Shown here piece after piece: positions 322 through 39,205 of a stretch of 64,000 nucleotides of DNA. The notes under the pieces were generated by a model, which made no database searches, was not told the origin of the DNA, and saw only the letters and a list, made by a program, of their open reading frames with translations. The translations under genes were made by a program, and so were the position numbers. The stretch is taken from the NCBI GenBank assembly GCA_963555705.1, contig OY743184.1:32002614-32066613 (forward strand), written 5' to 3'. Every line of letters starts with the position of its first letter. Position 1 is the first letter of the stretch. This DNA is from Ligustrum vulgare (Eukaryota; Streptophyta; Magnoliopsida; Lamiales; Oleaceae).

Positions 322-459
322 GGATCTCTACCAATAGTCGAGCTTTAGACTTTAAATGAAGCGCTCATTGAGAGGCAACCCAACCTTATATCCTTTTCAT
401 TTTTATTATGCTTTATTTCATGTTTTATTAATAATTTAGGATTTATTTTCCTCAGTAGT
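322..459 (+). other. Element A, conserved post-protease block and target site of B
   Basis: Downstream of the protease is a conserved block at about 343-386 (TTTAGACTTTAAATG, AGCGCTCATTGAGAGGCAAC). It recurs at 4943-4983 in B at the same place relative to protease. The stretch ends with GTAGT (455-459), the left target duplication of element B, matched at 18225-18229. Confidence 0.6.
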
Positions 460-2299
460 TGATAAGTGTATTTTATACACTTATTTATCTGTAAAAATTA
501 GGATATTATTTTATTTTTCTTGAATAAATTCTACTTAATTGTTGTAATTTGTTATTATTTCAGGTTTTATTCCAATATCAAGGAAAATAAGAAATTGTAG
601 CAAAATGCACATTTGGATGCTAACTGGAGCTAAATTGGACAATTGAGAGGCTAATGACATCAACGGGAAAGATGCAATGTGCCAAAGTAAAGAAATCAGA
701 AATTGAAGGGCTGAAGAACAAATTAAACATGAAGGAACAACTTGCAAATATCCAATGATTAACTTGGATCACAAGACAATACTTTGAGTATTTTTCAGAG
801 TCAATTGAATGCAAGTATAAGCCAAATAGGAATGGAATATGATAAGAATATTACCATAAAATTGATTCCAACGCACAAGATTCTGGACATATTTCTAGTC
901 GGATTTTGAGACCTAATTTCAGGATAGTAAACATTTGAATTGGAAAAATCATATTTCATCAAGAATTGTATTTATTATTTTTCTAAAAAAATTTGAATCA
1001 CTTCAATCAGATAAGGGAGTAGAAATATATGGTCGAAATACTAAACACTGTGCAGATACAAGAAAAGATTCTCACGGGTTTGACGAATTTCTTTCCTTCT
1101 TCAACTAGGTCTCTTCACCAACTATATAAAAAACATGTTTTGCACAAAAATCAGACCTTTGCCTCACCTAAGAACATCATAATTTTGGGATTTTAACGTC
1201 AAATTCTTGGGAGATTGGAGAAGCCAACTGGAACCAAAAGAAAGGGGCATGACTGGATTAATTTTGGTGGTGCACGGTGGGGGCGATGCTTGGACTTCAA
1301 CTATTCAAACTCTGGGTTTTACTTTCATTATTTGTTGCTATTTTTAGTCCCAAGAACATGAGTAGCTAAATTTAATATTGGGATTGATGATAAAGATTTA
1401 ATATTTCTAGTTTTAATTTCAATTTCAATTCTTAAGTTGGGGATTTTATTGTTTTCATGTATTGATTTTACTATGTTTTTAATGCTTGAATTAACTGGCC
1501 ACTAATTCATGATTTAATGGTTGTTTTCATAACTCGAGAAGTAATTTAACAATTAGACCATGTAGTAAAATTTGACAATTTCAACAAAAAGATAGAGATA
1601 TGAATTTGTGGTTGCTTGTGATCTTTTATGAATTCCTAGGTAATTTAATGCATTTAGCTAAGGAGAACTCTGACCCGCTGTAGAGATATACGGTTGATTT
1701 AGTTAAATATGCCTAATTTGAGTTCGAGAGAGGTAAATTAGATACATGTGTGAATTCGATCAATACAATTTTAGAAAACAATTTGAGATGCGAAATTATG
1801 CTAGAATATTATTTCGAAATCATTAGTCTCAATAGTTCTTTATTGTTAAGGAAACTCATTGTTCAATTTCTCATTTTTATAGTCTAATTTAGTTGCTTTT
1901 AGTTTAATTTTCTATTTATTATACACTGTTCGGCGGCTGGTTTTTGGGGGAAAAAACCATTTTTTACTGTTCCGCACGGATCTCGAGGGGTTTTGAGGGT
2001 TCAAAATTGGAGAGAGAAAAGATATGTAGTTAAAAAGTTGTATTGGAAATTGTAGAGTTTATAAACCAAAAAAACCTAAAGATTCCGAACAGAGGCTTAG
2101 TTTTTGGAATTGTTAGTTTTATTAATCTCTCAATTTATTGTCTTTTTGGAATCGTTTGCATTTTATTTTCTTTGTTAGTGTTTGATTTAGTCTAGGAATT
2201 CTCTTTACCAAAGTAAATCGATAGCAAAAACATAGTCCTCGAGAGATCGACAACTCGGACTCAAAAGTCCACCTTACTACTTGCGATTTCACACGAACA
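460..2299 (+). repeat. 5' LTR of element B
   Basis: It matches 16609-18224 over nearly its whole length. It begins TGATAAGTG, ends ACACGAACA, and the primer site follows within 7 bases. Relative to the 3' LTR it carries about 60 extra bases near 1229-1298 and an inserted block at about 1922-2092. Scattered substitutions and these indels show that B is much older than element C inside it. Confidence 0.85.
1922..2092. mobile_element. Small insertion in the 5' LTR of B, MITE-like
   Basis: About 170 bp present here and absent at the matching place in the 3' LTR (near 18000). It is framed by CTGTTCGG near 1927 and CCGAACAG near 2086, which are inverse complements, suggesting short terminal inverted repeats. 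I see no clean target duplication. A deletion from the other LTR is the alternative. Confidence 0.4.
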
Positions 2300-2305
2300 A
2301 GTTTT

Positions 2306-2323
2306 TGGCGCCGTTGTCGGGAA
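2306..2323 (+). other. Primer binding site of element B
   Basis: TGGCGCCGTTGTCGGGAA just inside the 5' LTR matches the tRNA-Asp-type primer site common in plant Ty3/gypsy elements of the Athila and Tat clades. It fixes the plus orientation of B. Confidence 0.8.
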
Positions 2324-2474
2324 CTATTTTAATTTGTTATTTAATTACTTTGATTTTTAGTATTCTTAGCTTTTAGATTTAGTTTGCCTTTAGTTTTTAG
2401 TATTTTGATTCATAATAAACAAAAACAATAAAAAAATCTAAAAACATTAAAAAAAATAAAAAATTCTGAACTAA

Positions 2475-3227
2475 ATGGCCAATCCAATCAATCCTTTGGA
2501 ATACATTGAACTACACCCAAATGTAGCTGCATTACCTCCTGGTCAAAATGCAGCATTGCAAATCAATCAAAACAACCAACAAAATGTACAAGATGACAAT
2601 GTAGGAGACTTTCCTATGGGTCAATTCTTGACTCTTGTTGCCACTGTAAATCGTTTTAGTATATTATATCTGCCTTTTGGAAGGAATGAGTTCCAATTAA
2701 AAGCGGACTTAATAAACCTTGTCAGTAATAATCTCCAATTTTTTAGAAAGGAACACGAGGACCCCAACGCACATATTGCAAGATTTGGAAGAATGTGCCA
2801 GAATTTCCAATTTCAAGGCATAGACGATGATGCCATTCGTTTGAGACTATTTCCTTACACTTTAAGAGATAGTGCATTGGAGTGTCTTGATTCTGAGCCT
2901 AAATTTAGTATAGCTACATGGGATGATTTAGCTAGGAAATTTTGTAACAAATATTTCTCACCTGCGAAGGTCGCTAAATTTAAATTGGAGATCTCCGCTT
3001 TTCAACAACTAAATGGTGAAAGTTTTCATGAATCCTGGGGTAGATTTAAGGATCTCCTTCAAAAATGCCCATATCATGGATTTAAAAAAGGCCTTCAAGT
3101 TCAATATTTCTACTCTGGGTTATCACCACAACACAAATCAATAGTGGACTCATTATTTGGTGGGTCCATTACCAATAAAAGTGTCAACCAAGCATGGGAC
3201 CTTGTAACTACCCGGCTCCCTCGCTAG
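2475..3227 (+). CDS. Gag of element B (Athila-like), 3' truncated by SINE
   Basis: A 250-codon reading frame encoding an Athila/Tat-type Gag, the structural protein that packages element RNA. Recognisable stretches are the capsid-like core with DDAIRLRLFPYTLRDSALEC, then WDDLARKFCNKYFSPAKVAK, GESFHESWGRFKDLLQKCP, and GLQVQYFYSGL near the end. The ATG lies 150 bp downstream of the primer site after an A-rich leader. The last codons run into the SINE insertion, so the original C-terminal part is displaced to after 3620. It is intact up to that point but cannot give a full Gag. Confidence 0.8.
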   Translation: MANPINPLEYIELHPNVAALPPGQNAALQINQNNQQNVQDDNVGDFPMGQFLTLVATVNRFSILYLPFGRNEFQLKADLINLVSNNLQFFRKEHEDPNAHIARFGRMCQNFQFQGIDDDAIRLRLFPYTLRDSALECLDSEPKFSIATWDDLARKFCNKYFSPAKVAKFKLEISAFQQLNGESFHESWGRFKDLLQKCPYHGFKKGLQVQYFYSGLSPQHKSIVDSLFGGSITNKSVNQAWDLVTTRLPR

Positions 3228-3421
3228 GGCCTTCTCTGAGTCGTACTTATGGTCTTTCCACTCCCCCTGGTCGTCCTGGTCCTCAAGGGCTGTCAGCATT
3301 GTTTCCAGGAAGTGAATTTTTGCCTTCCATGAGTTTTGAACATTGTACCTAGGGATTAAGTACAAAGATTCTTAGAAACCCACTACCATTAGATCAAAGA
3401 AACCCACTACCATTAGACCAT
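3203..3421 (-). mobile_element. tRNA-derived SINE, left (inverted) copy
   Basis: Inverse complement of the copy at 3423-3615, with scattered differences. It lies on the minus strand, starting near 3421 and ending near the GGCTCCCTCG stretch at about 3210. Its head holds a 20-bp direct duplication (3374-3393 and 3399-3418, period 25). The B-box region is mutated compared with the right copy, suggesting that this copy is dead. Confidence 0.6.
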
Positions 3422-3422
3422 T

Positions 3423-3615
3423 TGGTCTAATGGTAGTGGGTTTCTAAGAATCTTTGTACTTAACCCCTAGGTACAAGGTTCGAAACCTATGGAAGCTAAA
3501 AATCTACTTCCTGAAAACGAAGCTGGCAGCCCTTGAGGACCAGGACGACCAGGGGGGAGTGGAAATACCATGAGTGTGATTCGGAGGAGGCCCCAACGAG
3601 GGAGCCTGGTCATTC
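3423..3615 (+). mobile_element. tRNA-derived SINE, right copy
   Basis: A box-like TGGTCTAATGG at 3423-3433 and a consensus B box GGTTCGAAACC at 3478-3488, about 45 bp apart, form an internal RNA polymerase III promoter. This is typical of tRNA-derived SINEs. The body runs to about GAGGGAGCCTGG near 3612. With the left copy it forms a near-palindrome that interrupts gag of element B. I cannot name the family. Confidence 0.65.
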
Positions 3616-3619
3616 TGCT

Positions 3620-4829
3620 GCACATAAAGGGCTTGAAAATCAAATAAGTCAAATCGCTCAACAACTATCTGAGCGAGCACCTGGAACACTCCCAAGTAAC
3701 ACATTTAAAAGTTCAAGGGAGCAAGTCAACATGATCTCTGCAGTAGAGAAGAGAAAAATCTATACTCCAGCTTCTGAGGTAGCTGTTGAGGAAGAATCAT
3801 ACATTCCCACAAAGGAAGATTTTCCACCAAATGAATATGTACCTCCAATCCCTTTCCCTCGTAAACTCCTAAGAAATAGGTTACATAAGGATGTTCAGGC
3901 TATCACTACCAAAAGCAGTGTGCAATTTCCTGAAATGCATGAGAAGATGCATGAACAGAGGGAAAAGCAGACGAAAAATGAAGACAAGGGTATGGATATG
4001 AATGAGATATCAAATTCAAATTTAAAAATGATGTTGAAAAATCAAAGAATCTCAATCGCCTATCAAGACCTATGTCCCACCAGTCCCATTCCCCAAACGT
4101 CTGCAAAATCACAAAATGGATAAGCAGTTTAGTGAATTTCTGGAAGTATTTAAGAAACTGCATATCAACATTCCATTTGCAGATACTTTGGCTCAAATGC
4201 CAACTTACCTCAAGTTTATGAAAGAAATTATTTCTAAAAAGAGGAAGTTGAGGGAATTTGAGACTGTATCCTTAACTGAGGAGTACAGCGCAATTCTGCA
4301 AAATAAATTACCTCCAGAACTCAAAAATCTAGGGAGTTTCTCTATCCCTTGTGATATTGGAAATATTAAGTTTGATAGAGTTTTGTGTGATTTGGAGGCA
4401 AGTATCAATTTGATGCCTCTTTCAGTTTACAAGAAACTTGGATTGGGGGAACCCAAACCAACCAAAATCACATTACAACTGGCTGACAGATTTGTGAAGC
4501 ATATATATGGTGTTATTGAGGATATTTTAGTTAAAGTGGATAAATTCATCTTTCTAGTAGATTTCGTGATTTTGGATATTGAAGAGGACAATCGAATGCC
4601 ACTTATCTTTAGTGGACCATTCATGGCCACATGATGAGCTTTGATAGATGTTGAAAAGGGGGAGGTGATCTTGAGGGTTCATGATGATCAAGTAACTTTC
4701 AGTGTCACTCATCAGCCGAACAAATATTATCAAAGAGAAAGTTACTTTAAATTGGAGAAAGTGATACATGACAATGGACATAATTTGAAGCAAGAAGAAA
4801 AATTAGGTGGCACTCAGATCAATAATTAA
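3620..4829 (+). pseudogene. Element B gag C-terminus and protease, frameshifted
   Basis: After the SINE the Gag reading continues (LENQISQIAQQLSERAPGTL at about 3630) to 4123, with a linker holding YVPPIPFPRKLL. The frame shifts near 4060: the next frame repeats the motif as YVPPVPFPKRLQ and runs into the protease domain at 4116-4634. Protease landmarks are DRVLCDLEASINLMPLSVYK, where the conserved Gly of the active-site loop (DLGAS in the family) is Glu, and the C-terminal MPLIFSGPFMAT. Two stop codons follow at about 4633-4640, and ALIDVEKGEVILRVHDDQVT continues to 4829. The enzyme is dead by several independent lesions. Confidence 0.75.
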
Positions 4830-5835
4830 GAATTCAAGAAAGTGCGCAAATAGGTTGAGAGATGCAGGGCAGGAAATTGCAAGGAGTCCAGGGCATCACG
4901 AGCATCCTTCAAACCACCATAAGAAAGTTTGCAAAAAGTCAGGCTTTAGACTATAAACGGAGCGCTTATTGGGAGGCAACCCAATTTTCTATCCCTTTTA
5001 TTTATTTTGCTTTATTTACATCTTTACATTAAAATTTTTAGGTAGTATTTGCATTTCTTTTCTTTCTTGGAGTTTTTGTAGTTAGCATCCCTAGCACCGA
5101 CCCACTTTGAATTGATCTTCAAGTGCATTTTTTAGTTTTAGTTCATACATCATCCATGAGTTTAAAATTTTGCATCATATTGTTTTAACCTCATTGCTCT
5201 TATCACATTAAAAGCAAATCATAGGTATGATTTTGCAAACTTTGAGGAATTATGCATGATAATTGTAATGTTCTTGATGGTCGACCATGTTTGAAAATTT
5301 AAATTTTTGCTATGTTTTAGTTTGTATTGTTGGTGTTGATCTAATTCAATTTATTAATGATGTGTATGATTATAATAGTGTTTATCTTTTACTTGCGATG
5401 AACACACCACTTGTAACACTTCCAACCAAGCATGGAAACACAAGAAACGGGTCAAAATCATCCAAATGGCATCAAAACCAAGCTTCAAGTTGTCACATCG
5501 CTCCTCTAAATCTGGAAAGTACATAACTTCTCTTTTATGTATTGTTATTAATTGATATATCTTTTCTTTTACGTTGAGGACAATGTAACTTTTTAGTTTG
5601 GGGGGGGGGGGTATCTCATGTCTTCATTTTGTTCATTCGATACATTGTATTTGAGATTCACAAAAAAAAAAAAAAAATGAAAAATTCTGTTGATTTATTT
5701 ATCATCAATGATGTAGTTTGAATTGATTTGGTGCTTTGAATTAGATAAAGATTGTTGGACATCATTTGAACTTGAGTTTACTTATCCATGTTAGACTTGA
5801 CTAAATTGAGCACATAGCCAAATTGAATTAATACT
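4830..5835 (+). other. Element B non-coding 3' internal region, left part
   Basis: No coding capacity. It contains the conserved post-protease block at 4943-4983 (AGCGCTTATTGGGAGGCAAC), a G run at 5600-5611 within AGTTTGGGG, and an A run near 5662. Similar AGTTTGGGG stretches occur in element A at about 19528 and 19799. It ends with ATACT (5831-5835), the target site of element C. Confidence 0.6.
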
Positions 5836-8800
5836 TGTAGCGCCCCGAGTTCCGTATACCCGATTCACTACGTCATTTTCTGTCTAAATTTTTTCGAATA
5901 ATATTTTTGCGGAAGAAATAATTGAAATTCATTTTTGGCAACATTAAATAAACTGTAATGGCCGCTAAAATTGAAAACATTTATGAAACCATTTGAAATA
6001 GTAAATCGAACCATTAATATTGTAAAGAAATTGCCAATATCATAATTTCTCAAATAAATGAACTTCTCTAAATTATTCGATTGTTTGGAAAATACGGAAA
6101 TCATTAACGTCAAACTTTCAACCGTTCAACGATTATTGCCACCATCATTCATCGCTCGCCACCGTCTCCAAAATCTGCAAAACTGTTAAAAAGTAGGGTG
6201 AGTATTTCATGGGGGAAATACTCAGTAGACTCATCGCAAATTAATTTAATTTATAAGATGATTAAACACATAAATCCCGGCTCTTTATAAAACGGGCATT
6301 GATAGAACTTCTTTATAAAACTGCTCTTGATAAAACTCATATTGTGCATTACAGCACGGGACATATTTTGCAAATCATATGCTCTTTGAAAATAGCTCTT
6401 TGAAAATATCTCTTTGAAAATAGTTCTTTGAAAACAGCTCTTTGAAAACAGCTCTTTGAAAACCATATACTTATAAAAACATTTTAATTATGCCAAGCAT
6501 AATTTCTTTTGAAAGCATAACATAAGATAGGATTTAAATCCTCATAAACATAAATAGACACAAGAACTTTACCGAACTTAGGTGGCAAGAATTCTTATGC
6601 AGTAAAATCATAATAACAGTAAGTTTTCATCATAACATAGGATAATATCGAAATCCTCATAAACATAAGAATTTTACCGAACTTAGGTGGTAAGAATTCT
6701 TATGTAGTAAGTATACCAAGCATAATTTTCTGAAATTCATAGGGATCAATTGCATCATAACATAAGATAGGATCGAAATCCTCATAAACATATGCGACAG
6801 GAATTTTACCGAACTTAGGTGGTAAATCCTCATAAACATATGGAAAGATAGGAATTTTACCGAACTTCGTGGCAAATCCTCATAAACATAGGAGACACAA
6901 GAATGTTACCGAACTTAGGTGGCAAGAATTCTTATGTGTAGCGCTACTAAAACTCCGGTCCCCTTAACATATCATAACTTATCATATGGGACCCAAAACA
7001 ATCTTGGTAGATTGATTTCATAGCAATGATCCAAAAAAAACATTTTTCGTGAAGCATAGGGTATACTTACTTTTCGTAAAAACATAAAGTATATTTTCTT
7101 TTCATAAAAACATACTTACTTTTCATAACAACATAAGGTATATTTACCTTTCATAAAAACATACTTGTTTTTCTTAAAAATTGACTTTCACAAGTCACAT
7201 GACATTCATATGAAATCATAAGTTAAATCAATTAATAAGTGCGAGTCTACCTCAAATCCGACGAGTGCAAAGTTGAGCGGGAATGACTTCAATTTCTTTA
7301 AATTCTCCGTACGCTTCGTCTTAGCCAATAAGTCACTTTAGTCTATCGAATATATAGTTCAAAATGATAAATTATAATTTGAGGACTAAAATTGATGTTT
7401 TGAAAGTTGAGGGACTAAAATGAATACTTTTGAAAGTTCATGGACTAAAATAGATATTTTGAAAGTTGAGGGATTAAAATGAATACTTTTGATAGTTGAG
7501 TCGGAAACTCAAAACAATAGGGTTGAAATAATATATTTTAAAAATGAAGGCTGAATAAAATCATTTAAAACTTAAGGGCTGAAATTGATAAGTTTAAAAG
7601 ATGAAAGGACTGAAATAAAACCTTTTTTAAAACATAGGGACTGATTTGAAATAACTTTAAAACTTCAGGGACCAAAATGCAAATTTCCGAAATTAATTAT
7701 ATACTCAGATTTACTCTCTCTCTCTACCATTCTCACTTCTCTTTCTCTCGTTCTCACTCTCTCTTCACTCAGCACTCTCTCTGCGATTTCATCAGTGAAA
7801 TCAGGCGAGGAACGAACGAGTGACACTGCCGGTGATTCGCCGGCGAAGTAGCCGGCGCAGGTTGCGGTAAGTGGTGGCCAAAGCAAGGTTTCTGATTTTA
7901 GGGCTTGGGTGCTGATTCGAGGTGAAACCGGGGCTGCAGGTCGGGACTTCCGGTGGAGAATCCGACCATAAATGGTCGACGGTAGAGGTAGGTAACTGGG
8001 TTAGAGTTCTTGGTAATATTTTGGGTTTTGGGGAGTTTGATTTGGGTGAAGGTGAAATGGGCAGTGGCGATTTGAAGCTCGGTGTTGGTGGTTGTTCGGT
8101 TCTGGCTGCGGAAGGGGACTGCAGTGGCTGTGGTGCTTTTACTGAGAATGGTTTGGTGGTTGAAATGGTGCCGGTTGTGGTAGTGATGAAACAGTGGTTG
8201 GTGATGAGGACTGATTAACGGAGGTGGTGTGATGAGGCAGATTGATGTTGGTGCAGATGAGAATTGCAGTAGCGCTGTTTGGTGAATTGAGGATGATGGT
8301 TATGGTGGTGGCTTGGCATGGCTGGTTTGGCTAACTGGTGATGATGGATCTGTGCTCATGGTTTGCATATTGGGGTTAAATTGATGGAGATGATGGTGAT
8401 TTAATCTGTGGCAGGTGGTTGGTTTTGATGATTTCGAATGGTGATGAAGATGATGATTCAGAGACTGGTTTGGAGATTCGGCTATGGCGGATTTGAGGAT
8501 GGCGAATTGGAAAGGCAGGCTGGTGGTTGCAGCTTTCATCATGTATAATGGAGTGGTGTCATGTATAATGGAGTGGTGGTGAAATAGATGATAATGGAGA
8601 ATATAATCATTATGTTCTTGCAACATAATGAATACATACGGGTGGTGGAGTTAGTGGGGAATAAAATCATTGAATGGAATAATTATAATTTGGTTTAATA
8701 TGATATGGATTTGGTGTAAAGAGAAAAGAAAGGAGGAGAAAACATGGGGGATGAAATCAACTAAAAATTTAACTATCTTTGATCAAGAAACGTTTTTAAA

Positions 8801-9039
8801 ACAGATATATTTTTGACTGAAAAATACATTTTGAAAATAATACTTTGAATAAATAGTTAAAATAATATAATTTTAGAAATTCGGATTTTAATTTAAAATC
8901 GAACGAATTCGATATTTCTTGACTTGGCTAGACGAATTCGTCGCGGCGTTAATTTCAAAATAATAAATGAAATAGTAGCGACACAATTTTCTAAATATTA
9001 AAATAATTATTTATTGCATAAAAATTCTGGGTCGCTATA
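5836..9039 (-). repeat. 3' LTR of element C (minus orientation)
   Basis: 3.2 kb, starting TGTAGCGCCCC on the plus strand and ending GGGTCGCTATA, so the ends form an imperfect inverted repeat (TGTAGCG and CGCTATA). The right half has a CT-rich tract (about 7710-7775) followed by a G-rich, GC-richer stretch (7800-8560), unlike the AT-rich left half. Frames open in this stretch are present in both LTRs; I do not regard them as genes. Short repeats rich in CTCATAAACATA and TTTACCGAACTTAGG occur at about 6530-6930. Confidence 0.9.
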
Positions 9040-9085
9040 ATCTTACCTCCTTAAAATAATTTCGTCCTCGAAATTAAACTTACTT
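9040..9085 (-). pseudogene. Polypurine tract and last codons of chromovirus pol
   Basis: On the minus strand this reads as a short frame with NFEDEIILRR and a stop, the usual C-terminus of Tekay/Del-like chromovirus polyproteins. It runs straight into the purine-rich AAGGAGGTAAGAT and the LTR. Element D shows the same arrangement at 35119-35160 (NFEDEISFRG and stop). It proves that C derives from a chromovirus whose gag-pol was lost. Confidence 0.75.
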
Positions 9086-9570
9086 AATCTTATAATTTCT
9101 GAATACTTAATCAGAATCTCTTCTTCTTATCATCGAAAATTCTCAAAATAATCAAAGAATTACCTGAATATTTTCTCTACGTAAAATACCCAAACATATC
9201 AACATAATATCATCAACTTATCTTTCCAATAATTGTAACCCAAAATTCAGTAAACAAATATCTCCCAAAACTAAGATTCTATACTTAAATGTCACCACAT
9301 TTCCTGCAAAGTATTTCTTTCACTTGTATATACGTATGAATTCTGATTCAATACGGTACTCATTTTACTTTCCACGTATCATCACATTATACCAAGATTA
9401 TCATTATTAAAACAAAATATCAGTACCCATAATCCAAGAAAATATTCCAAATCTCCAATCAAATCTCCTTTATCGATAAAATTTAACAGCACATTACTTC
9501 TTGTCTCCTCTTTTCATTAAAATAATCCTGCGCTTTCTTGCTGGTCACAACATCACGCGGATTCACTCAG
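9086..9570 (-). other. Element C non-coding interior, right of the 3' LTR
   Basis: AT-rich, no coding capacity. Stretches such as ATTACCTGAATATT and AACATAATATCATCA (about 9160-9220) recur in the interior of element D near 37423-37493. It is therefore retrotransposon sequence, not part of the cargo. Confidence 0.55.
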
Positions 9571-9582
9571 ATCCTTTGCGCT

Positions 9583-9590
9583 TTTAAATA
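9583..9590 (+). promoter_or_regulatory. TATA-like box upstream of the Cys-rich gene
   Basis: CTTTTAAATAGTTCA at 9581-9595, 34 bp before the ATG. Almost the same motif, CTTTAAATAGTCAAA, precedes the LOG gene. The leader would be very short, so this is a candidate only. Confidence 0.4.
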
Positions 9591-9623
9591 GTTCATGCTG
9601 GGAAGAGGTTGAATCATCAAACA

Positions 9624-10175
9624 ATGGATATCATTCTTTCTAACATTCGCAAGTATTATTCCAGTCTTCCTATGAATGATCTGAGAAAGATCTATAAAAT
9701 AAGGCTCGAAAGATTGAGGTTGCTAATGGCTCATGATATTCCAGAAGATGTTCGCTGGTTGATAGAAGCAAAGGTTCGACTATCTGGTGAATTACCATCA
9801 ACATTTCCAAAACATATGCCTGGTTTAGGCAAAAGCACGTTCGCAAAGAAACGAAGAGCAAAAAGACTGGGTGGTTGCTACAAATGTGCTCGTTGGAACT
9901 GTAATACACGTTGCAAATCAGTAGGATATTCTTCTACTAATCGGGATGATAAAATCGAATTCATAAAGGGTGGACTGAGTAAGGAGTCTTTGGATGATAT
10001 TCGACTGACTCTTGAGACGCACCCAAGTGGTTATGTACAACGTGAACTTCTCTCCTTATACGCTCAGTTTAACGAGGACAAAAATCGTTATAGTCTCCAA
10101 AATATAATATCGAAAGATCCTGTTTGCCAGTCTGTTTTACAAAATGAGGCTTCTGGCAGTTCAGCAATGATATAA
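9624..10175 (+). CDS. Basic four-cysteine protein, viral NABP-like, in element C
   Basis: Intact frame of 183 residues from the ATG at 9624. The N-terminal half is probably helical (residues 1-55). A basic patch KKRRAKR at 75-81 leads into C85-x2-C88-x4-C93-x3-C97, a candidate zinc-binding knuckle, followed by a serine/aspartate segment and an acidic-to-helical C-terminus. A basic run abutting a Cys cluster and then a Phe-Ile-x-x-Gly-like stretch recalls the small cysteine-rich nucleic-acid-binding proteins of carlaviruses and vitiviruses, some of which suppress RNA silencing. The cysteine spacing is shorter than in carlaviruses, so the match is suggestive only. It lies 287 bp upstream of the LOG gene on the same strand, antisense to element C. 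No stop or frameshift is seen. Function is not established. Confidence 0.7.
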   Translation: MDIILSNIRKYYSSLPMNDLRKIYKIRLERLRLLMAHDIPEDVRWLIEAKVRLSGELPSTFPKHMPGLGKSTFAKKRRAKRLGGCYKCARWNCNTRCKSVGYSSTNRDDKIEFIKGGLSKESLDDIRLTLETHPSGYVQRELLSLYAQFNEDKNRYSLQNIISKDPVCQSVLQNEASGSSAMI

Positions 10176-10223
10176 GGTAAATCTTTTTAAAATATTTTGC
10201 TGCTCTCTTTCACGCGTTTTGGA

Positions 10224-10229
10224 AATAAA
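10224..10229 (+). terminator. Possible polyadenylation signal after the Cys-rich gene
   Basis: AATAAA 49 bp after the stop codon, with another at 10266-10271. They would give the upstream gene its own 3' end before the LOG promoter region. Common in AT-rich DNA, hence weak. Confidence 0.35.
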
Positions 10230-10379
10230 ATATATTTTCCTTTCACGAGGTTTGATAAAGCTGGAAATAAATCACCGAAAGGTGATATCTTTGATAAAAT
10301 AGTCAAAAGTTGGCCGATTTTGTCAAAAAGTGAATCTTTACTTTTTCAGAATCAATCAAAAACAGTAAATTTTTCCGGC

Positions 10380-10387
10380 TTTAAATA
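10380..10387 (+). promoter_or_regulatory. TATA-like box upstream of LOG
   Basis: CTTTAAATAGTC at 10379-10390, 75 bp upstream of the LOG start codon. This is a suitable distance for a leader of about 45 bases, which is pyrimidine-rich (TTCTTCG, TTTTCTCTTC). Its resemblance to the box at 9583-9590 suggests two genes built on the same compact plan. Confidence 0.45.
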
Positions 10388-10462
10388 GTCAAACATATTT
10401 CATAGTTCAGGCATCCCAAAATCACATCTTCTTCGTAAGTTTTCTCTTCTATACTATCAAAG

Positions 10463-11116
10463 ATGGAAGCACCAAAACTTCGACAAATCAAAACTATTTG
10501 TGTATTTTGTGGATCAAAAGTAGGGAAAGGCTTCGGTTATCTAGAAGCGGCTGTAGATCTTGGAAAGAAACTGGGGGAAAAAGGTATCACTCTTGTGTAT
10601 GGGGGTGGTAGCAGTGGTCTAATGGGTTGTGTTTCCCAATCTGCTCTTGCAGAGAAATCAAAAGTAATCGGTGTTATACCTGTCCCTTTGGTAGATGTTG
10701 CAGGCAAAACACGAGGGCATGAAGTTCAAACTTTATCCATCCATGAACGCATAACTTGTATGTTATATGGTTCTGATGCCTTTATAGCCCTGCCCGGAGG
10801 TTTTGGTACCTTAGAAGAAATTTTTAACATTACCTCGTGGGCTCAACTAGATCTCCATACTAAGCCTATTGGGCTTCTGAATGTTAACAATTTCTTTGAT
10901 GGTTTGTTAACCTTTCTTGATTATGCTGTGGAACAGGGATTTATCTCTCCATTTTCCAGAAGGCTTCTTATTTCTGCTCCTACTATTGATGAACTACTGG
11001 ATAAGCTGCAGTCATATATCTCAATACAAGATCCAGCAGGAGTTAAGATAGATTGGTCGCAAGGAAGGGGAATCAAGCGAAAATGGAGTCCGGTTAATGT
11101 AAACTTAACTCTTTGA
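10463..11116 (+). CDS. LOG: LOG-type cytokinin riboside 5'-monophosphate phosphoribohydrolase
   Basis: Intact, intronless 217-codon gene. LOG enzymes release active cytokinin bases from cytokinin riboside monophosphates in the cytosol. Landmarks: CVFCGS at 13-18, LVYGGGSSGLMG at 44-55, HER at 94-96 and the signature PGGFGTLEE at 111-119, with R96 and E119 at the positions known as catalytic. The residue after R96 is Ile where plant LOGs normally have Lys. Length fits the plant family, and the C-terminal third (SWAQLDLHTKPIGLLN, SAPTIDELLDKLQSY) is plant-like. Plant LOG genes normally have several introns. Here the gene is antisense to the retroelement, so introns could not have been removed from the element's own transcript: a processed cDNA or a viral-type source is implied. 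An open frame in a divergent copy suggests past selection. Confidence 0.9.
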   Translation: MEAPKLRQIKTICVFCGSKVGKGFGYLEAAVDLGKKLGEKGITLVYGGGSSGLMGCVSQSALAEKSKVIGVIPVPLVDVAGKTRGHEVQTLSIHERITCMLYGSDAFIALPGGFGTLEEIFNITSWAQLDLHTKPIGLLNVNNFFDGLLTFLDYAVEQGFISPFSRRLLISAPTIDELLDKLQSYISIQDPAGVKIDWSQGRGIKRKWSPVNVNLTL

Positions 11117-11126
11117 ATCTTAGAAT

Positions 11127-11338
11127 AGGTGGGGGTAGAGTACGGAGTATTCTCACTCTCGAGACACCCCTCCATTTACTAGGATTTCCTTCATGTTTAA
11201 ATCTTGTGTGTACTTCAAAGATTCCAGGTGGTAGATTACGGAGTATTCTTACTCTCGAAACACACCTCTTTGAAGGTTTCTTTATTTCCTCAAAAGATCA
11301 GAGGTGGTAGGATACGGCTACTCCGGAAACACATCTCT
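11127..11338 (+). repeat. Three hairpin-like repeats downstream of LOG
   Basis: Three related blocks at 11127-11172, 11225-11270 and 11300-11338. Each has GGTGG(T/G) near the start, TACGG in the middle and ACACMYCTC-like sequence at the end. The outer arms can pair (GGGG with CCCC in block 1, AGGTG with CACCT in block 2, AGAGGTG with CATCTCT allowing one G-U in block 3), so pairing is kept while bases differ. They would lie in the 3' UTR of the LOG transcript. No function is known to me. Confidence 0.6.
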
Positions 11339-11436
11339 CATTCTGAGGATCTTTCCATGTTTTATCTCTTATGCTTTCGTGTGTTTCATGTATTCCTTTC
11401 CAGTGTGACTCTTGTGTGTTCTCCTTATGAGAAAAT

Positions 11437-11442
11437 AATAAA
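11437..11442 (+). terminator. Possible polyadenylation signal after LOG
   Basis: AATAAA about 320 bp after the LOG stop codon, past the three hairpin-like blocks and TG-rich sequence (CTTGTGTGTTC). Plausible 3' end of the LOG transcript. Confidence 0.4.
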
Positions 11443-11479
11443 ATCTCTGCTATCATCTACTAAATCTCGTTTGTGATGT

Positions 11480-12293
11480 AAATAATCTTGCATGTCTAAC
11501 CTTAATTCCTTTAGTGGATGCTTATCATATTATGCTCTTAATTCCAAATGATAAAATTCTGGATAGAGTCTCCCTTGTAATTTGGACTTATTCCAAACCA
11601 TAAGCATACTTCATAACTCACAATAATAAATAACTCCACATTTGATCACAACGATCTAAAAATATTGAAAATAATTCTAACACTTCAATATCATCAAAAT
11701 ATCCCATAATTCAATTCATAATTCCTCAACATAACAATTTCAAATAATATTTTTCAATATCACAATATCACTTCCTTCGATACCTTAATGGCTCAAAAGA
11801 TAACTCATACTTATAAATATATGCCATAAATCATATTCCCAAAATTTATTCACAAAGCCAAACTTCATAATAAATTTCTCTTCAACATAGAGGCATAATA
11901 AATTAACTCAACATAATATCCATTACTTAATTTTCAATAAAATCATATTATTCCCATTATGCTCAACACTCGTTTTCTTTAAAAAAATTTCTCATAATCA
12001 TACATTAAAGCATATAAGTTATGACAAAGCATAACAACATCATTATTTTCGAAGAAATACATTCTTATTTCTCATAAATCATAAGTATCCGAAATACTCT
12101 TCATTCTTTCTCATAAATCAATAAAATGAGTATTCGAAATACTGAAATAACTTTAAACATCATAAACTTCTTTACCTCGGAGTTGGTGGAACGAATGATG
12201 GCAGTGGCAATCTTCATCAATAAAATTTATAATGGAAAATATTTCTTGAAAATTCTTTTTGAAAATTTTTCCAGTCTACAGAAACGCAGACTA
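11480..12293 (-). other. Element C non-coding interior, left of the 5' LTR
   Basis: AT-rich, without coding capacity. Stretches such as CATAATTCCTCAACATAACA and TATAAATATATGCCA (about 11720-11830) recur with few changes at about 37750-37856 in element D. This brackets the cargo at roughly 9570-11480. Confidence 0.6.
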
Positions 12294-12305
12294 TCTCTGA
12301 TACCA
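12294..12305 (-). other. Primer binding site of element C (tRNA-iMet)
   Basis: On the minus strand TGGTATCAGAGA follows the LTR end after 3 bases, matching the initiator tRNA-Met primer site TGGTATCAGAGC with one final difference. It fixes the minus orientation of element C. Confidence 0.85.
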
Positions 12306-12308
12306 ACT

Positions 12309-15300
12309 TGTAGCGCCCCGAGTTCCGTATACCCGATTCACTACGTCATTTTCTGTCTAAATTTTTTCGAATAATATTTTTGCGGAAGAAATAATTGAAA
12401 TTCATTTTTGGCAACATTAAATAAACTGTAATGGCCGCTAAAATTGAAAACATTTATGAAACCATTTGAAATAGTAAATCGAACCATTAATATTGTAAAG
12501 AAATTGCCAATATCATAATTTCTCAAATAAATGAACTTCTCTAAATTATTCGATTGTTTGGAAAATACGGAAATCATTAACGTCAAACTTTCAACCGTTC
12601 AACGATTATTGCCACCATCATTCATCGCTCGCCACCGTCTCCAAAATCTGCAAAACTGTTAAAAAGTAGGGTGAGTATTTCATGGGGGAAATACTCAGTA
12701 GACTCATCGCAAATTAATTTAATTTATAAGATGATTAAACACATAAATCCCGGCTCTTTATAAAACGGGCATTGATAGAACTTCTTTATAAAACTGCTCT
12801 TGATAAAACTCATATTGTGCATTACAGCACGGGACATATTTTGCAAATCATATGCTCTTTGAAAATAGCTCTTTGAAAATATCTCTTTGAAAATAGTTCT
12901 TTGAAAACAGCTCTTTGAAAACAGCTCTTTGAAAACCATATACTTATAAAAACATTTTAATTATGCCAAGCATAATTTCTTTTGAAAGCATAACATAAGA
13001 TAGGATTTAAATCCTCATAAACATAAATAGACACAAGAACTTTACCGAACTTAGGTGGCAAGAATTCTTATGCAGTAAAATCATAATAACAGTAAGTTTT
13101 CATCATAACATAGGATAATATCGAAATCCTCATAAACATAAGAATTTTACCGAACTTAGGTGGTAAGAATTCTTATGTAGTAAGTATACCAAGCATAATT
13201 TTCTGAAATTCATAGGGATCAATTGCATCATAACATAAGATAGGATCGAAATCCTCATAAACATATGCGACAGGAATTTTACCGAACTTAGGTGGTAAAT
13301 CCTCATAAACATATGGAAAGATAGGAATTTTACCGAACTTCGTGGCAAATCCTCATAAACATAGGAGACACAAGAATGTTACCGAACTTAGGTGGCAAGA
13401 ATTCTTATGTGTAGCGCTACTAAAACTCCGGTCCCCTTAACATATCATAACTTATCATATGGGACCCAAAACAATCTTGGTAGATTGATTTCATAGCAAT
13501 GATCCAAAAAAAACATTTTTCGTGAAGCATAGGGTATACTTACTTTTCGTAAAAACATAAAGTATATTTTCTTTTCATAAAAACATACTTACTTTTCATA
13601 ACAACATAAGGTATATTTACCTTTCATAAAAACATACTTGTTTTTCTTAAAAATTGACTTTCACAAGTCACATGACATTCATATGAAATCATAAGTTAAA
13701 TCAATTAATAAGTGCGAGTCTACCTCAAATCCGACGAGTGCAAAGTTGAGCGGGAATGACTTCAATTTCTTTAAATTCTCCGTACGCTTCGTCTTAGCCA
13801 ATAAGTCACTTTAGTCTATCGAATATATAGTTCAAAATGATAAATTATAATTTGAGGACTAAAATTGATGTTTTGAAAGTTGAGGGACTAAAATGAATAC
13901 TTTTGAAAGTTCATGGACTAAAATAGATATTTTGAAAGTTGAGGGATTAAAATGAATACTTTTGATAGTTGAGTCGGAAACTCAAAACAATAGGGTTGAA
14001 ATAATATATTTTAAAAATGAAGGCTGAATAAAATCATTTAAAACTTAAGGGCTGAAATTGATAAGTTTAAAAGATGAAAGGACTGAAATAAAACCTTTTT
14101 TAAAACATAGGGACTGATTTGAAATAACTTTAAAACTTCAGGGACCAAAATGCAAATTTCCGAAATTAATTATATACTCAGATTTACTCTCTCTCTCTAC
14201 CATTCTCACTTCTCTTTCTCTCGTTCTCACTCTCTCTTCACTCAGCACTCTCTCTGCGATTTCATCAGTGAAATCAGGCGAGGAACGAACGAGTGACACT
14301 GCCGGTGATTCGCCGGCGAAGTAGCCGGCGCAGGTTGCGGTAAGTGGTGGCCAAAGCAAGGTTTCTGATTTTAGGGCTTGGGTGCTGATTCGAGGTGAAA
14401 CCGGGGCTGCAGGTCGGGACTTCCGGTGGAGAATCCGACCATAAATGGTCGACGGTAGAGGTAGGTAACTGGGTTAGAGTTCTTGGTAATATTTTGGGTT
14501 TTGGGGAGTTTGATTTGGGTGAAGGTGAAATGGGCAGTGGCGATTTGAAGCTCGGTGTTGGTGGTTGTTCGGTTCTGGCTGCGGAAGGGGACTGCAGTGG
14601 CTGTGGTGCTTTTACTGAGAATGGTTTGGTGGTTGAAATGGTGCCGGTTGTGGTAGTGATGAAACAGTGGTTGGTGATGAGGACTGATTAACGGAGGTGG
14701 TGTGATGAGGCAGATTGATGTTGGTGCAGATGAGAATTGCAGTAGCGCTGTTTGGTGAATTGAGGATGATGGTTATGGTGGTGGCTTGGCATGGCTGGTT
14801 TGGCTAACTGGTGATGATGGATCTGTGCTCATGGTTTGCATATTGGGGTTAAATTGATGGAGATGATGGTGATTTAATCTGTGGCAGGTGGTTGGTTTTG
14901 ATGATTTCGAATGGTGATGAAGATGATGATTCAGAGACTGGTTTGGAGATTCGGCTATGGCGGATTTGAGGATGGCGAATTGGAAAGGCAGGCTGGTGGT
15001 TGCAGCTTTCATCATGTATAATGGAGTGGTGTCATGTATAATGGAGTGGTGGTGAAATAGATGATAATGGAGAATATAATCATTATGTTCTTGCAACATA
15101 ATGAATACATACGGGTGGTGGAGTTAGTGGGGAATAAAATCATTGAATGGAATAATTATAATTTGGTTTAATATGATATGGATTTGGTGTAAAGAGAAAA
15201 GAAAGGAGGAGAAAACATGGGGGATGAAATCAACTAAAAATTTAACTATCTTTGATCAAGAAACGTTTTTAAAACAGATATATTTTTGACTGAAAAATAC

Positions 15301-15512
15301 ATTTTGAAAATAATACTTTGAATAAATAGTTAAAATAATATAATTTTAGAAATTCGGATTTTAATTTAAAATCGAACGAATTCGATATTTCTTGACTTGG
15401 CTAGACGAATTCGTCGCGGCGTTAATTTCAAAATAATAAATGAAATAGTAGCGACACAATTTTCTAAATATTAAAATAATTATTTATTGCATAAAAATTC
15501 TGGGTCGCTATA
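12309..15512 (-). repeat. 5' LTR of element C (minus orientation)
   Basis: Partner of 5836-9039 at a constant offset of 6473 bases. I saw no difference in any stretch compared, including homopolymer runs. The last base is ambiguous because the flanking duplication ATACT shares an A with the LTR end. Confidence 0.9.
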
Positions 15513-15516
15513 TACT

Positions 15517-16608
15517 TGTGTGGGAATATGCTTGATATATGTGGGGAAATATCATGTGATTTGAACTAGGAATGACTATTTATTCCTAACCTTTAGATCA
15601 TTAGATTTTCCGTCCCTAAAATAGAACCAAACGTGCCCAAAAGGCAAGTTTTGGGGTGGAATGTTTAGAATGTGTATGTATTGGTAGGTTGGAGGTCTGT
15701 GGTTCTTGATTTTTCACTTTAGTTAAAACGGTTTGGTCAACGAGTATAAACCATAGAAAAATGCTGAAGGTCTTATTCTACTCTTCAAAAGCCTTTTTGA
15801 CTCGAGCAATTAAGTCTAAGGGGTCTTTCAAACTTGGTGCCCTAAAGTCGTCTGGCTTGGGAGTCACCAACCTAAAGCCGCTACAGGGGTCAATTAGAAA
15901 GAAAGTACTGAGAGTGGACTTATACATAAGACAAACAAACATCTTTAACTTTTCGATATCGACTGTGTGACTCGAGCAATTAAGTTTGAGGGGTCTTTCA
16001 AACCTGGTACCCTAAAGTTGTCTGGCTTGGGAGTCACCGACCTAAAACTCACTACAGGGGTCACATAGAAAGCGAATGAGAAAATTATTGATAAGCTTTG
16101 TTGACTATAATTGTGGAGATGAAGAGTGTAGAATTGGGGACTGCATACTTTTGACTTGTTGTGCATGCATACTTCTAATTCTACTATCTTGAGTGGAAAA
16201 AGCAATGAAAATATTTAGAAACCACATTGATAGAGGGAACCTCGGGATATGAGGGAAGAGCATAAGGTTGTGATCATCCATGAGAGTTGAAAGGAAATCA
16301 TTGTTTGACCACATGGGATTTGGGTTTGCTTGTGCATGATGAGTTACATTATGTTAGGTATATTTTTGTTCAAGTATGCGTTTGATTTTGGCTATTCACA
16401 CACACACGAAAGTTCAGCATGGGATAAGTGGAAATAATTTCTATGTTGTTCAATTTCCTTTTCTAAAGTGCATGTTTGATTCGAACTTTAGGCAATATGG
16501 TAAATGAATTAACAGTTAAAAAATTTTGTTATTCAGTTATTTTGACATATTTTTATTTTTAGTTTTAGTTTGTTCGAGGACGAACAAATATTCTAGTTTT
16601 GGGGGGTT
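15517..16608 (+). other. Element B non-coding 3' internal region, right part
   Basis: Continuation of B after the C insertion. Two imperfect copies of about 130 bp (15790-15910 and 15968-16080) share GACTCGAGCAATTAAG and CTTGGGAGTCACC. Much of it has a diverged counterpart in element A at 20040-20320 and 21174-21460. It ends in the purine tract GGGGGG (16601-16606) directly before the 3' LTR. Confidence 0.6.
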
Positions 16609-18224
16609 TGATAAGTGTTTTTTATACACTTATTTATCTGTTAAAATTTGGATATTATTTTGTTTTTCTTGAATAAATTCTACTTAATTGTTGTTATTTA
16701 TTATTATTTCAGCTTTTTTCCCAAAATCAAGAAAAATAAGAAATTGTAGAAAAATGCACTTTTGGATGCTAACTGGAGCTAAATTGTACAATCGAGAGGC
16801 TAATGACATCAACGGGAAAGATGCAATGTGCCAAAGTAAAAAATCATCAGTTGAAGGACTGAAGAGCAAATTAAACATGAGGGAACAACTTGCAAATATC
16901 CAATGATTGACTTGGATCACAAGACAATACTTTGAGTATTTTTAGGAGTCAATTGGATGCAAGTAGAAGCCAAAAAGGAATGGAATATAACAGGAATATT
17001 ACCATAAAATTGATTCCAACCGCACAAGATTCTGGACAGATTTCTAGTCGGACTTTGAGACCTAATTTTAGGGTAGTAAAGTTTGAATTGGAAAATCCTA
17101 TTTTAGCAAGAATTATAGTCCTTTAAGTTATCTTTCTAACGTAATTTGAATCACCTCAATCAGATAAGGGAATAGAAAGATATGGTCGAAATACTGAACG
17201 CTGTGCAGATATAAGAAAAGACTCGCGGGTTTGACGAATTTCTTTCCTTTTTCAACTAGGTCTCTTCACCAACTATATAAGAAACATGTCTTGCACGAAA
17301 ATCAGACCTTTCCCTCACCTAAGAACATCATAATTTTGGGATTTCAACGTCAAATTCTTGGGATATTGGAGAAGCCGACTGACTTCAACTATTCAAACTC
17401 TGGGTTTTACTTTCATTATTTATTGCTATTTTTAGTCCCAAGAATATGAGTAGCTAAATTTAATATTGGGATTGATGATGAAGATTTAATATTTCTACTT
17501 TTAATTTCAATTCTCAAGTTGGGGATTTTATTGTTTTCATGTATTGATTTTACTATGGTTTTTATGCTTGAATTAACTGGCTACTAATTCATGATTTAAT
17601 GGTTGTTTTCATAATCCGAGAGGTGAGTTAACAATTAGACCGTGTAGTAAAAGCTGGCAATTTCAACAAAAAGATAGAGATATGAAATTGTGGTTGCTTG
17701 TGATCATTTATGAATTCCTAGGTAATTTAATGCATTTAGTTAAGGAGAACTTTGACCCGCTGTAGAGATACATGGTTGACTTAGTTAAATATGCCTAATT
17801 TGAACTCGAGAGAGGTAAATTAGATACATTTGTGAATTCGATCAAATACAATTTTAGAAAACAACTTGAGATGAGAAATTATGCTTGAATATTATTTCGA
17901 AATCATTAGTCCCAATAGTTCTTTATTATTAAGAAAACTCATCGTTCAATTTCTCGTTTTTGTAGTTTAATTTAGTTGCTTTTAGTTTAATTTTCTATTT
18001 CTTAGTTTTTGGAATTGTTAGTTTTATTAATCTCTCAATTTATTGTCTTTTTGGAATCATTTGCATTTTATTTTCTTAGTTAGTGTTTGCTTTAGTCTAA
18101 GAATTCTCTTTATCAAAGTAAATCGATAGCAAAAACATAATTCTCGTGGGATCGATAACCCGGACTCAAAAGTCTACTTTACCACTTGTTAAGGATATCG
18201 TGCACTTGCGATTTCACAAGAACA
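16609..18224 (+). repeat. 3' LTR of element B
   Basis: Begins TGATAAGTG after the polypurine tract, ends CACAAGAACA, and is followed by the target duplication GTAGT (18225-18229). It is shorter than the 5' LTR because it lacks two blocks present there, and it carries about 16 extra bases near its end. Confidence 0.85.
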
Positions 18225-34254: not shown

Positions 34255-34315
<61 letters not shown>

Positions 34316-35118
34316 GAGACATACACACTCATATAATTATGAACCAAAGTTCCAACTAATAATTTAAAATTCGAAATCTTGACAAATTCGAATCTGAAAT
34401 ATAAAATTTATACAAATACACATCACATACATAAAATTTCATATTTATACGAGTGTGTGTTCGTGTGGGTGTGTGTATCAGTGCGCGAGTGCGTGCGTTG
34501 TGTGTGAGGGGGCGGAAAAAGGGGCTACCGCGAGTTGGGCGGTGGTGCGCCGGCGAGTTGGGCGGTGGTGCGCCGACGAGCTGGCCGGTGGTGCGCCGGC
34601 GAGAAACTGAGGGAGAGGGCGAAGTCGAGCGAGAGACAGGGAGAGAACCGGAGGTCGCGAGAGGGAGAGAGGCCGAGACAGAGCGAGAGATGTGAGATAG
34701 AGTGAGGGGCGTGAGATAGGATTTAGGTTTAAATGTTTAAGATTTGGTAATTTGCAATTTAGTCCCTCAACTCCCATAAACTGGTAATTAAGTCCAAAAC
34801 TTTCTCATTGAACCCCCAAAAGCCTCTAAAACTTATCCCCAATATCAAATTTAAATGCAATATGCCACTAACTTAATAAAAATAGGATTGGCAAGCCTAA
34901 CAATTAAAATAAACAATTAATCACATAAAATTGCATATAAAAATTTTTTTAACTTTCTAATTTGGTACATTGATCGAGACGACGTCCAAGTCCTTCCACT
35001 GCAAAATAATTCAATTAATAATAATAATAATTATAATCAATTACAAAATTTGTAATCGCATCAACATAAAATTACGTGAGATTCAAGAAAGTACGTAAAA
35101 CAAAAAAGTGGTATTACA
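32383..35118 (-). repeat. 3' LTR of element D
   Basis: 2736 bp. It contains an (AT)n tract at 34257-34307, an extra CCACCGCAAAGCGGCTCATT-type unit at about 33240-33270, and a GC-rich stretch (34500-34680) with repeated GGTGCGCCGGCGAG units. The open frames in that stretch occur in both LTRs on both strands and are not credible genes. Confidence 0.85.
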
Positions 35119-38030: not shown

Positions 38031-38300
38031 ATCATATTTCTTCTTCATGTATAGCTCCTGAGCACCCCATGGCAAAAAAGCTAGGTCGAACAAAACCTTT
38101 GTCCATGAGATTCTATAGTTGCACTTTGAGCTCTTTTAAGTTACGAAGGAGCCATCCGATACTATACCTTGGATACTAGAGTTGCGCACTTAATCGATGA
38201 CGAATTCAATTTCTCTTTTAGGTGATAAATCACAAAGATCTTTTGAGAAATCTTTAGTCATTCTCGAATAACTGAAATTTGTTCGAGAGAAGTATTCACC
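38031..38300 (-). pseudogene. Element D reverse transcriptase start, decayed
   Basis: Minus strand: DFSKDLCDLSP near 38240, KREIEFVID near 38215, then LKELKVQL followed by a stop, NLMDKGFVRPSFLPWGAQEL near 38090-38050. This is the start of a chromovirus reverse transcriptase (the family pattern is a basic linker, an MAP-x-E-L-KELK helix and GFIRPS-x-SPWGAP). Stops are frequent and the catalytic YVDD region is absent. Confidence 0.75.
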
Positions 38301-39201: not shown

Positions 39202-39205
39202 AAAA

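Follow-up and report, generated by a model that had tools for sequence, protein, structure and literature searches.

An antisense NABP–LOG gene pair kept by purifying selection in a non-autonomous LTR retrotransposon of Ligustrum vulgare

A 64,000-nt stretch of Ligustrum vulgare contig OY743184.1, referred to here as the window (all coordinates are counted from its start), contains a long terminal repeat (LTR) retrotransposon, element C, whose interior carries two open reading frames (ORFs): one for a protein of the viral nucleic acid-binding protein families (NABP) and one for a protein of the cytokinin-related LONELY GUY family (LOG). Both proteins have been maintained by purifying selection while the element multiplied. 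Element C is best explained as a mobile non-autonomous LTR retrotransposon in which NABP and LOG, lying antisense to the element, are kept by purifying selection, likely because their joint effect is to suppress silencing and to drive host cells into a state of division in which the element is copied; as a whole, this explanation is given an even chance of being right.

Element C has all the parts of an LTR retrotransposon, i.e. paired LTRs, a primer binding site (PBS), a polypurine tract (PPT) and a target-site duplication (TSD), the last being one base short in the window (Table 1). The positions of the PBS and PPT place the element on the minus strand and rule out the plus-strand orientation, so that the plus-strand LOG is antisense to it. 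A preliminary description of the window had spoken of LTRs without a visible difference and of an intact target duplication. The former was borne out, with 0 mismatches over 3,204 bp (the identical block covering the LTRs measures 3,207 bp, with 0 differences). The latter stood only in part: a TSD is present, and it has 5 bp in seven other copies, but the window itself reads 4 bp, TACT. Since those seven copies possess perfect 5-bp TSDs and the same LTR ends, the window TSD is most simply TACTT minus one T. Since the LTRs do not differ, the insertion is recent, and at the rate assumed for rice it likely dates back no more than tens of thousands of years; the LOG gene thus lies, as had been claimed, in a recently inserted retroelement, which is also multi-copy. 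The claim that pol has been replaced by cargo proved equally correct. The gag-pol coding region that marks an autonomous Ty3/gypsy element is gone, and only the pol C-terminal relic NFEDEIILRR* is left. This pol end is taken to be a motif of the Tekay/Del chromovirus lineage, and TGGTATCAGAG is presumably a primer site of the initiator methionine tRNA (tRNA-iMet) type; from these two features and from a related element of the window (element D), element C, which has no reverse transcriptase, is classified as probably Tekay/Del-like. The interior measures 3.27 kb, and its only recognised genes are the two antisense, plus-strand ORFs NABP and LOG, the longest ORF besides these having 91 aa.

The host genome (1.385 Gb) was searched with the 1.9-kb cargo, which gave 3,014 first-look candidates, 40 of which, the window among them, were scored. 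All 40 are full length and 98–100% identical, with NABP intact in 39 and LOG in 40; because of this identity, most copies in this first set are considered young. Copies were also sampled independently of the cargo, through the interior sequence 11480–12308: out of 40 scored matches, nine lay beside known cargo copies, and 20 of the other 31 were retrieved. Each of these 20 bears both genes, LOG being full length in 18 and NABP in 18, so the gene is not single-copy and the further copies which the preliminary description had proposed to look for do exist. Of the 60 pooled copies, 57 have an intact NABP, 58 an intact LOG, and 55 have both genes intact. A tblastn search of the window itself found no further copies of the cargo. 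Searching the genome with a host LOG gave 150 scored matches, all of them 48–51% identical to the host LOG and 149 without an internal stop. Forty more copies were taken from these matches, 20 picked for unusual ORF length and 20 others; an NABP match lies upstream on the same strand in every one (partial in four), with LOG full length in 35 and NABP in 29.

The arrangement of element C recurs on many chromosomes, and the junctions of ten copies show perfect 5-bp TSDs with identical LTR ends in seven cases, one copy inside a tandem array and two unassignable ones. It can therefore be practically dismissed that positions 9570–11480 are an ordinary host gene locus hit by retrotransposon insertions. 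LOG is a normal plant gene family, but the cargo sits between the LTR, PBS and PPT of a single element, is found at many chromosomal sites with their own TSDs, and holds an uninterrupted LOG frame that stands apart from host LOGs in the tree described below. An ordinary single-locus host LOG gene, grouping with host LOGs, was thus rejected.

Tandem arrays of the element were observed at G000 C8:58461175-58479625, C12:42159389, C10:31100407, C1:40437071 and C16:2954912. Their units are spaced by about 6.3–6.5 kb, and by exactly 6,473 between three C8 copies, which equals the length of one LTR plus the interior; comparable spacings occur among the scored NABP matches in the host genome. Tandem LTR elements are already known (PMC11899658).

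For the analysis of selection, each variable ORF site was classified as synonymous or nonsynonymous and as shared (present in at least two distinct haplotypes) or single. Because they are present in at least two distinct haplotypes, shared variants were inherited through transposition. In the 60 copies (51 haplotypes), the shared LOG variants comprise 17 synonymous and 2 nonsynonymous changes (expected nonsynonymous fraction 0.73, P 2.4e-8) and the single ones 7 and 16, respectively; the corresponding counts for NABP are 14 and 8 shared (P 8.6e-5) and 7 and 22 single. Across both genes, shared and single variants differ with a Fisher P of 3.5e-6. The 20 copies found by non-cargo sequence, together with the window, gave 11/0 shared and 7/9 single (synonymous/nonsynonymous) for LOG and 11/5 and 7/12 for NABP, with P 0.0016 for both genes and P 0.09 for NABP alone. 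Noncoding variants, counted in the first 32 haplotypes, were shared in 31 and single in 17 cases (P 0.12 against synonymous, P 0.0024 against nonsynonymous variants). The wider intact set yielded 92/34 (LOG) and 87/69 (NABP) shared and 31/47 and 23/55 single variants. Between subfamilies, where only intact full-length rows were used and 3 of the 40 copies were set aside as belonging to the window's own subfamily, the ratio of nonsynonymous to synonymous substitution rates (dN/dS) is 0.07 for LOG (n = 32 distinct, dS 0.49) and 0.15 for NABP (n = 22 distinct, dS 0.70). No indel was found in either ORF in any of the 60 copies; the spacer differs in length in 18 of them and the downstream part in 37.

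The shared changes are mostly synonymous and the single ones look neutral, therefore selection acts across transposition, and decay of the cargo genes likely starts after insertion. That both genes are neutral passengers, left intact by chance in a few source copies which amplified recently, so that the ORFs only look conserved, is scarcely credible. The near-identity and youth of the first-set copies would fit such a history; the strongly synonymous character of the shared but not of the single changes, the low dN/dS at considerable dS between intact subfamily members, and the constant ORF lengths next to variable spacer and downstream lengths do not. At the level tested, neutrality was rejected by the shared/single split and by the between-subfamily dN/dS. 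The preliminary description had proposed that LOG was kept by selection across transpositions and had named three outcomes that would speak against this, namely a single copy in the genome, a LOG frame evolving neutrally and an ordinary host locus; none of the three was found, and the proposal is supported by the shared changes and the between-subfamily dN/dS alike.

The window LOG exhibits the features of its family: (i) a PF03641 domain; (ii) the catalytic arginine, Arg96; (iii) the motif PGGxGTxxE, here PGGFGTLEE. It is uninterrupted over 217 aa, as the earlier claim of a full-length LOG with catalytic Arg and signature Glu had stated. Its structural model, with a predicted local distance difference test score (pLDDT) of 86, matches Arabidopsis LOG3 (Foldseek E 7.5e-24, 1.3 A). 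Plant LOGs release active cytokinin, and the window LOG is predicted to be a cytokinin-activating enzyme (riboside 5'-monophosphate phosphoribohydrolase). The comparison sets comprised the best 120 listed relatives of the window LOG and 120 matches of a host LOG3 search; the host set covers the LOG3/LOG1 type plus LOG8. Identity of the window LOG or its relatives to host LOGs is about 50%. A tree of 83 rows (the window with 59 of the 120 relatives, 21 of the 120 host LOGs, LOG8 and one bacterial LOG) separates the window LOG and its relatives from the host LOGs by a branch with 96% SH-aLRT; when rooted on the long bacterial branch, their fork has 89%. The divergence from usual plant LOGs with an open frame, noted earlier, is thus confirmed. 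Compared to plant LONELY GUY enzymes, the window LOG is alike in predicted fold, arginine and motif, and differs in its identity level, its uninterrupted frame, its separate position in the tree and a basic, LxLxL-like C-terminal tail.

The relatives of the window LOG are probably retroelement genes, judged by similarity and copy number rather than by a view of the elements themselves. Reevesia models account for 38 of the 120 listed LOG matches, and no Reevesia name stands among the 120 listed NABP matches. Such elements supply many LOG copies with an uninterrupted frame, which may be taken for host genes during annotation: four listed relatives (P0125, P0176, P0180 and P0217) are annotated LOGL10 or LOG3-like in public plant genomes, and similarity makes them, too, probably retroelement genes.

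The EAR motif, of the form LxLxL, is known to bind TOPLESS. Within the last 14 residues, LxLxL occurs in 92 of the 120 relatives (in 89 following a basic stretch) and in none of the 120 host LOGs, and shuffling the tails of the 120 relatives gave it in 12.3 on average and in 24 at most. After clustering of the relatives at 70% identity, it is in the majority in 18 of 24 clusters. The 75 full-length LOGs examined from the window family and the sister subfamily in the host genome all keep Arg96 and the catalytic motif, and 72 of them end in the tail NVNL[ST]L.

The 183-aa NABP lies above the curated Pfam cut-offs of two viral families, Viral_NABP (E 3.3e-7, 30.9 against a cut-off of 23 bits) and Carla_C4 (E 4.7e-6, 26.9 against 20.9 bits). 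It contains a C-x2-C-x4-C-x3-C motif beside a basic stretch. Relatives at E 1e-3 or better number 352, and the same cysteine spacing is present in 105 of the 120 listed. In viral NABPs this spacing is longer. The protein therefore resembles the cysteine-rich NABPs of carlaviruses and betaflexiviruses in both Pfam families and in the basic stretch beside the cysteine cluster, and differs from them in its spacing and in being encoded by retroelements. A comparison with BFVD, made with a weak model, gave 19 matches, the best two of which are plant-virus small proteins, from Cherry mottle leaf virus (E 0.63) and Grapevine Kizil Sapak virus (E 2.7). A search of viral contigs revealed no NABP relative, and one LOG at 29%. 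NABP is likely a member of the carlavirus silencing-suppressor family, and a suppressor role is predicted for it from this similarity; p12 of Chrysanthemum virus B, a carlavirus NABP, is described as activating transcription in the nucleus and suppressing silencing (PMC7588395).

The viral Pfam families could also point to an integrated plant RNA virus fragment (a betaflexivirus-like endogenous viral element) trapped in the retrotransposon, but this origin of the interior is very improbable. The ten other interior ORFs of 62–91 aa, shorter ones lying outside the scan, gave no Pfam match at E 0.1, so that no other viral gene is recognised; wherever an organism is named for the 120 listed NABP relatives, it is a plant; and NABP forms a pair with LOG in other elements too. 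An endogenous viral element is judged by further genes of its virus nearby, and none was recognised among these interior ORFs.

The gene pair occurs in other retroelements. Loci L103 and L104 carry the cargo at 79–81% identity over window positions 9318–11393 and have flanks unlike element C, therefore the module sits in another background. In L105 and L106, NABP (65%) is followed in the same direction by LOG (51–52%) and then by a purine tract like that of locus L002 (47-bp match), in which an integrase ORF is directly followed by NABP in sense and the tract. These three loci are presumably Athila-like, judging by the pol end and the tract, and the NABP–LOG pair thus stands in sense within two Athila-like loci, L105 and L106. 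Between the window and L002, NABP has a dN/dS of 0.24 at dS 1.19, which is near saturation. Both domains are also present in three Orobanche gene models, P0017, P0018 and P0022. Contigs of 8723 and 4511 bp appear in both the NABP and the LOG match lists, which suggests shared contigs. The presence of NABP and LOG on one Xanthoceras chromosome was dropped as evidence of adjacency, the locus numbers being far apart. Upstream of the pair in the Athila-like loci a 264-aa ORF was observed (L105:4777-5568, minus strand), with no Pfam match above cut-off. L002 (DAIEQH010000041.1) is filed under a Candidatus Nomurabacteria metagenome-assembled genome and looks like plant retrotransposon DNA, so this assembly is probably contaminated.

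The LOGs of L105 and L106 have lost the catalytic Arg and PGGxGTxxE, and L105 still ends in LDLELRL; likewise, 10 of the 13 relatives without the catalytic motif retain the tail. Enzyme and tail may thus be selected separately. A minor possibility is that the LOG-derived protein is mainly an adaptor, whose tail binds TOPLESS-type co-repressors and so interferes with host silencing or growth programmes, cytokinin release being secondary or lost in some lineages. The frequency of the tail in the relatives, its absence from host LOGs and its persistence without catalysis would agree with this. However, PGGxGTxxE is kept in 107 of the 120 relatives, about as often as in host LOGs (108 of 120), the host-genome copies combine full catalytic conservation with a relaxed tail, and TOPLESS binding is itself predicted from the motif.

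A broader proposal is that NABP–LOG constitutes a portable host-reprogramming kit, a viral-type suppressor and a TOPLESS-tailed hormone enzyme which move jointly between Tekay-like and Athila-like elements, with copies lacking the kit ceasing to spread. This is advanced tentatively and is doubted rather more than believed. If it were true, retrotransposons would follow a programme resembling that of a virus: by cytokinin signalling, capture of co-repressors and suppression of silencing they would make meristem cells accessible to transposition.

According to the favoured explanation of selection for joint suppression of silencing and stimulation of division, the gag-pol proteins would be supplied in trans by an autonomous relative, and NABP and LOG would each be expressed from a TATA-like promoter of their own. 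NABP would share the roles of its viral relatives in suppressing silencing and in nuclear regulation; active cytokinin would be released by LOG, and in the wider LOG family the tail might recruit the TOPLESS co-repressor. The cassette would thereby favour dividing cells with weakened silencing, in which a retrotransposon is copied and inherited; copies losing either gene would leave few descendants, and the module could pass between retrotransposon lineages. The selection pattern implies fewer descendants for copies without the genes, so that the benefit would be at least partly tied to the copy, its cell lineage or the host, although gag-pol has to be supplied from elsewhere. It is unlikely, though, that selection acts on the host instead, with the plant gaining from extra LOG and NABP (as a gene supply, or through virus resistance by NABP) and the element being a mere vehicle. 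Purifying selection alone cannot separate a benefit at the level of the element from one at the level of the host, and both proteins are of cytokinin- and virus-related kinds; the many dispersed copies and tandem arrays (at least 40, at least 150 and at least 150 scored) nevertheless agree better with selection at transposition than with keeping individual loci intact, and the changes in single copies look neutral.

Several observations weigh against the favoured explanation. In the wider intact set, single LOG variants also fall below neutral expectation (31/47, ratio 0.62, P 0.026), which is expected because of the intact filter. On the tree the split is less clean, with 20/2 internal and 20/7 terminal changes for LOG and 9/4 and 6/14 for NABP, perhaps owing to recombination between copies. 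Pooling shared and single variants in the first 40 copies leaves a weak signal for NABP taken by itself (10/15, P 0.075); the NABP fold model is poor (pLDDT 57), with no significant viral fold match. The TATA-like boxes are not universal: TTTAAATA is found within 70 nt of the NABP ATG in 42 and within 110 nt of the LOG ATG in 57 of the 60 copies, and in the other subfamily a looser TATA-like match is present in only 18 of 35. The window tail, VNVNLTL, reads VxLxL and so departs from the strict LxLxL of the EAR motif. L002 has NABP without LOG, and the catalytic loss in L105 and L106 means that catalysis is not needed everywhere. Cytokinin release, which the preliminary description had put forward as a possible benefit to an element that must reach germ cells, is therefore probably not the sole selected function; the account centred on LOG holds for the presence of the gene in a mobile element under selection, and had overlooked the NABP partner, the antisense layout, the EAR-like tail of the family and the two Athila-like loci with the pair.

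Comparable systems differ in their carriers and their genes. LARD-type elements (large retrotransposon derivatives) have long LTRs, a PBS and a PPT, lack gag-pol and are typically non-coding; element C shares this layout, but encodes two selected proteins. Bacterial mobile DNA with cytokinin genes includes the Agrobacterium ipt gene and the Rhodococcus fas operon with a LOG. There, too, cytokinin genes that presumably redirect the division of plant cells travel on mobile or parasitic DNA; element C differs in being a retrotransposon of the plant's own, inherited genome. Steinbauerova et al. in 2011 reportedly described LOG-like (YgdH/LOGL4) extra ORFs in plant Ty3/gypsy elements. A LOG-type domain is mentioned for LTR retrotransposon consensus sequences of Citrus and Populus (PMC9289625, citing Steinbauerova 2011), and it is this domain in plant LTR elements that element C has in common with them. 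The passages of that paper on LOG-like Ty3/gypsy ORFs mention neither an NABP beside the LOG nor an antisense position within a non-autonomous derivative of a chromovirus, and neither an EAR-like tail nor a copy-based test of selection. The same source describes an AlkB/ALKBH domain acquired by orchid Ty3/gypsy elements (PMC9289625), likewise a case of an additional functional ORF gained and retained by a retroelement family, but with one gene, a different element family and an RNA demethylase function.

In the open-licence PubMed Central literature no report was found of NABP in retrotransposons, of the NABP–LOG pair or of the LOG tail; LOG ORFs in retroelements have thus been reported before, whereas none of the literature searched turned out to describe the selected pair. 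Extra ORFs are common in plant retrotransposons and their roles mostly unknown; here, a non-autonomous element that ought not to need any has kept two. This makes it testable whether plant retrotransposons bring along effectors that counter silencing in the host and promote growth of its cells, and connects retroelements with plant hormone metabolism and with a suppressor family of plant RNA viruses.

Table 1. Coordinates of element C and of the features found in it (window positions).
Feature	Position	Strand	Remarks
Element C, LTR retrotransposon	5836-15512	-	paired LTRs, PBS, PPT, TSD
Left TSD	5832..5835	.	TACT as read; probably TACTT, one T lost
3' LTR	5836..9039	-	3,204 bp, 0 mismatches vs other LTR
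PPT	9040..9056	-	minus-strand TTTTAAGGAGGTAAGAT, read directly; adjoins left LTR
pol C-terminus relic NFEDEIILRR*	9043..9075	-	presumed Tekay/Del chromovirus type
TATA-like box	9582..9591	+	TTTTAAATAG; upstream of NABP; candidate promoter element
NABP ORF	9624..10175	+	183 aa; Viral_NABP (PF05515) / Carla_C4 (PF01623)
TATA-like box	10380..10388	+	TTTAAATAG; upstream of LOG; candidate promoter element
LOG ORF	10463..11116	+	217 aa, uninterrupted; PF03641 E 1.3e-33; Arg96 and PGGFGTLEE intact
LOG C-terminal tail	11075..11113	+	KRKWSPVNVNLTL; relaxed version of the LxLxL (EAR-like) tail of relatives
Three diverged repeats	11131..11340	+	motif like GGTGGTAGATTACGGAGTATTCTTACTCTCGAAACACACC; at ~11131, 11227, 11303; downstream of LOG
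PBS	12295..12305	-	TGGTATCAGAG, presumed tRNA-iMet type; adjoins right LTR
5' LTR	12309..15512	-	3,204 bp
Right TSD	15513..15517	.	TACTT

The three repeats 3' of LOG fold no better than shuffled sequences (z -0.83). Element D (32383–41885) is a minus-strand LTR element with 97% LTRs, an iMet PBS and the layout of element C, with whose interior it shares a 244-bp stretch of 86% identity. It possesses the same pol-end motif and, in addition, a chromodomain relic below the Pfam cut-off (E 6e-4, 20.1 against 25.1 bits), and shows no NABP or LOG match. Element C is itself nested in an older element spanning 459–18188, with repeats at 459–2283 and 16608–18188 (91–93%) and a gag ORF at 2475–3227. A scan of the whole window with Rfam at the gathering threshold gave a single, unrelated match: snoR71, at 2976–3082 on the minus strand (58 bits, cut-off 40), within the gag ORF of the older element. 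This match is either a retrotransposon-borne copy, or the Rfam family includes retroelement sequence.

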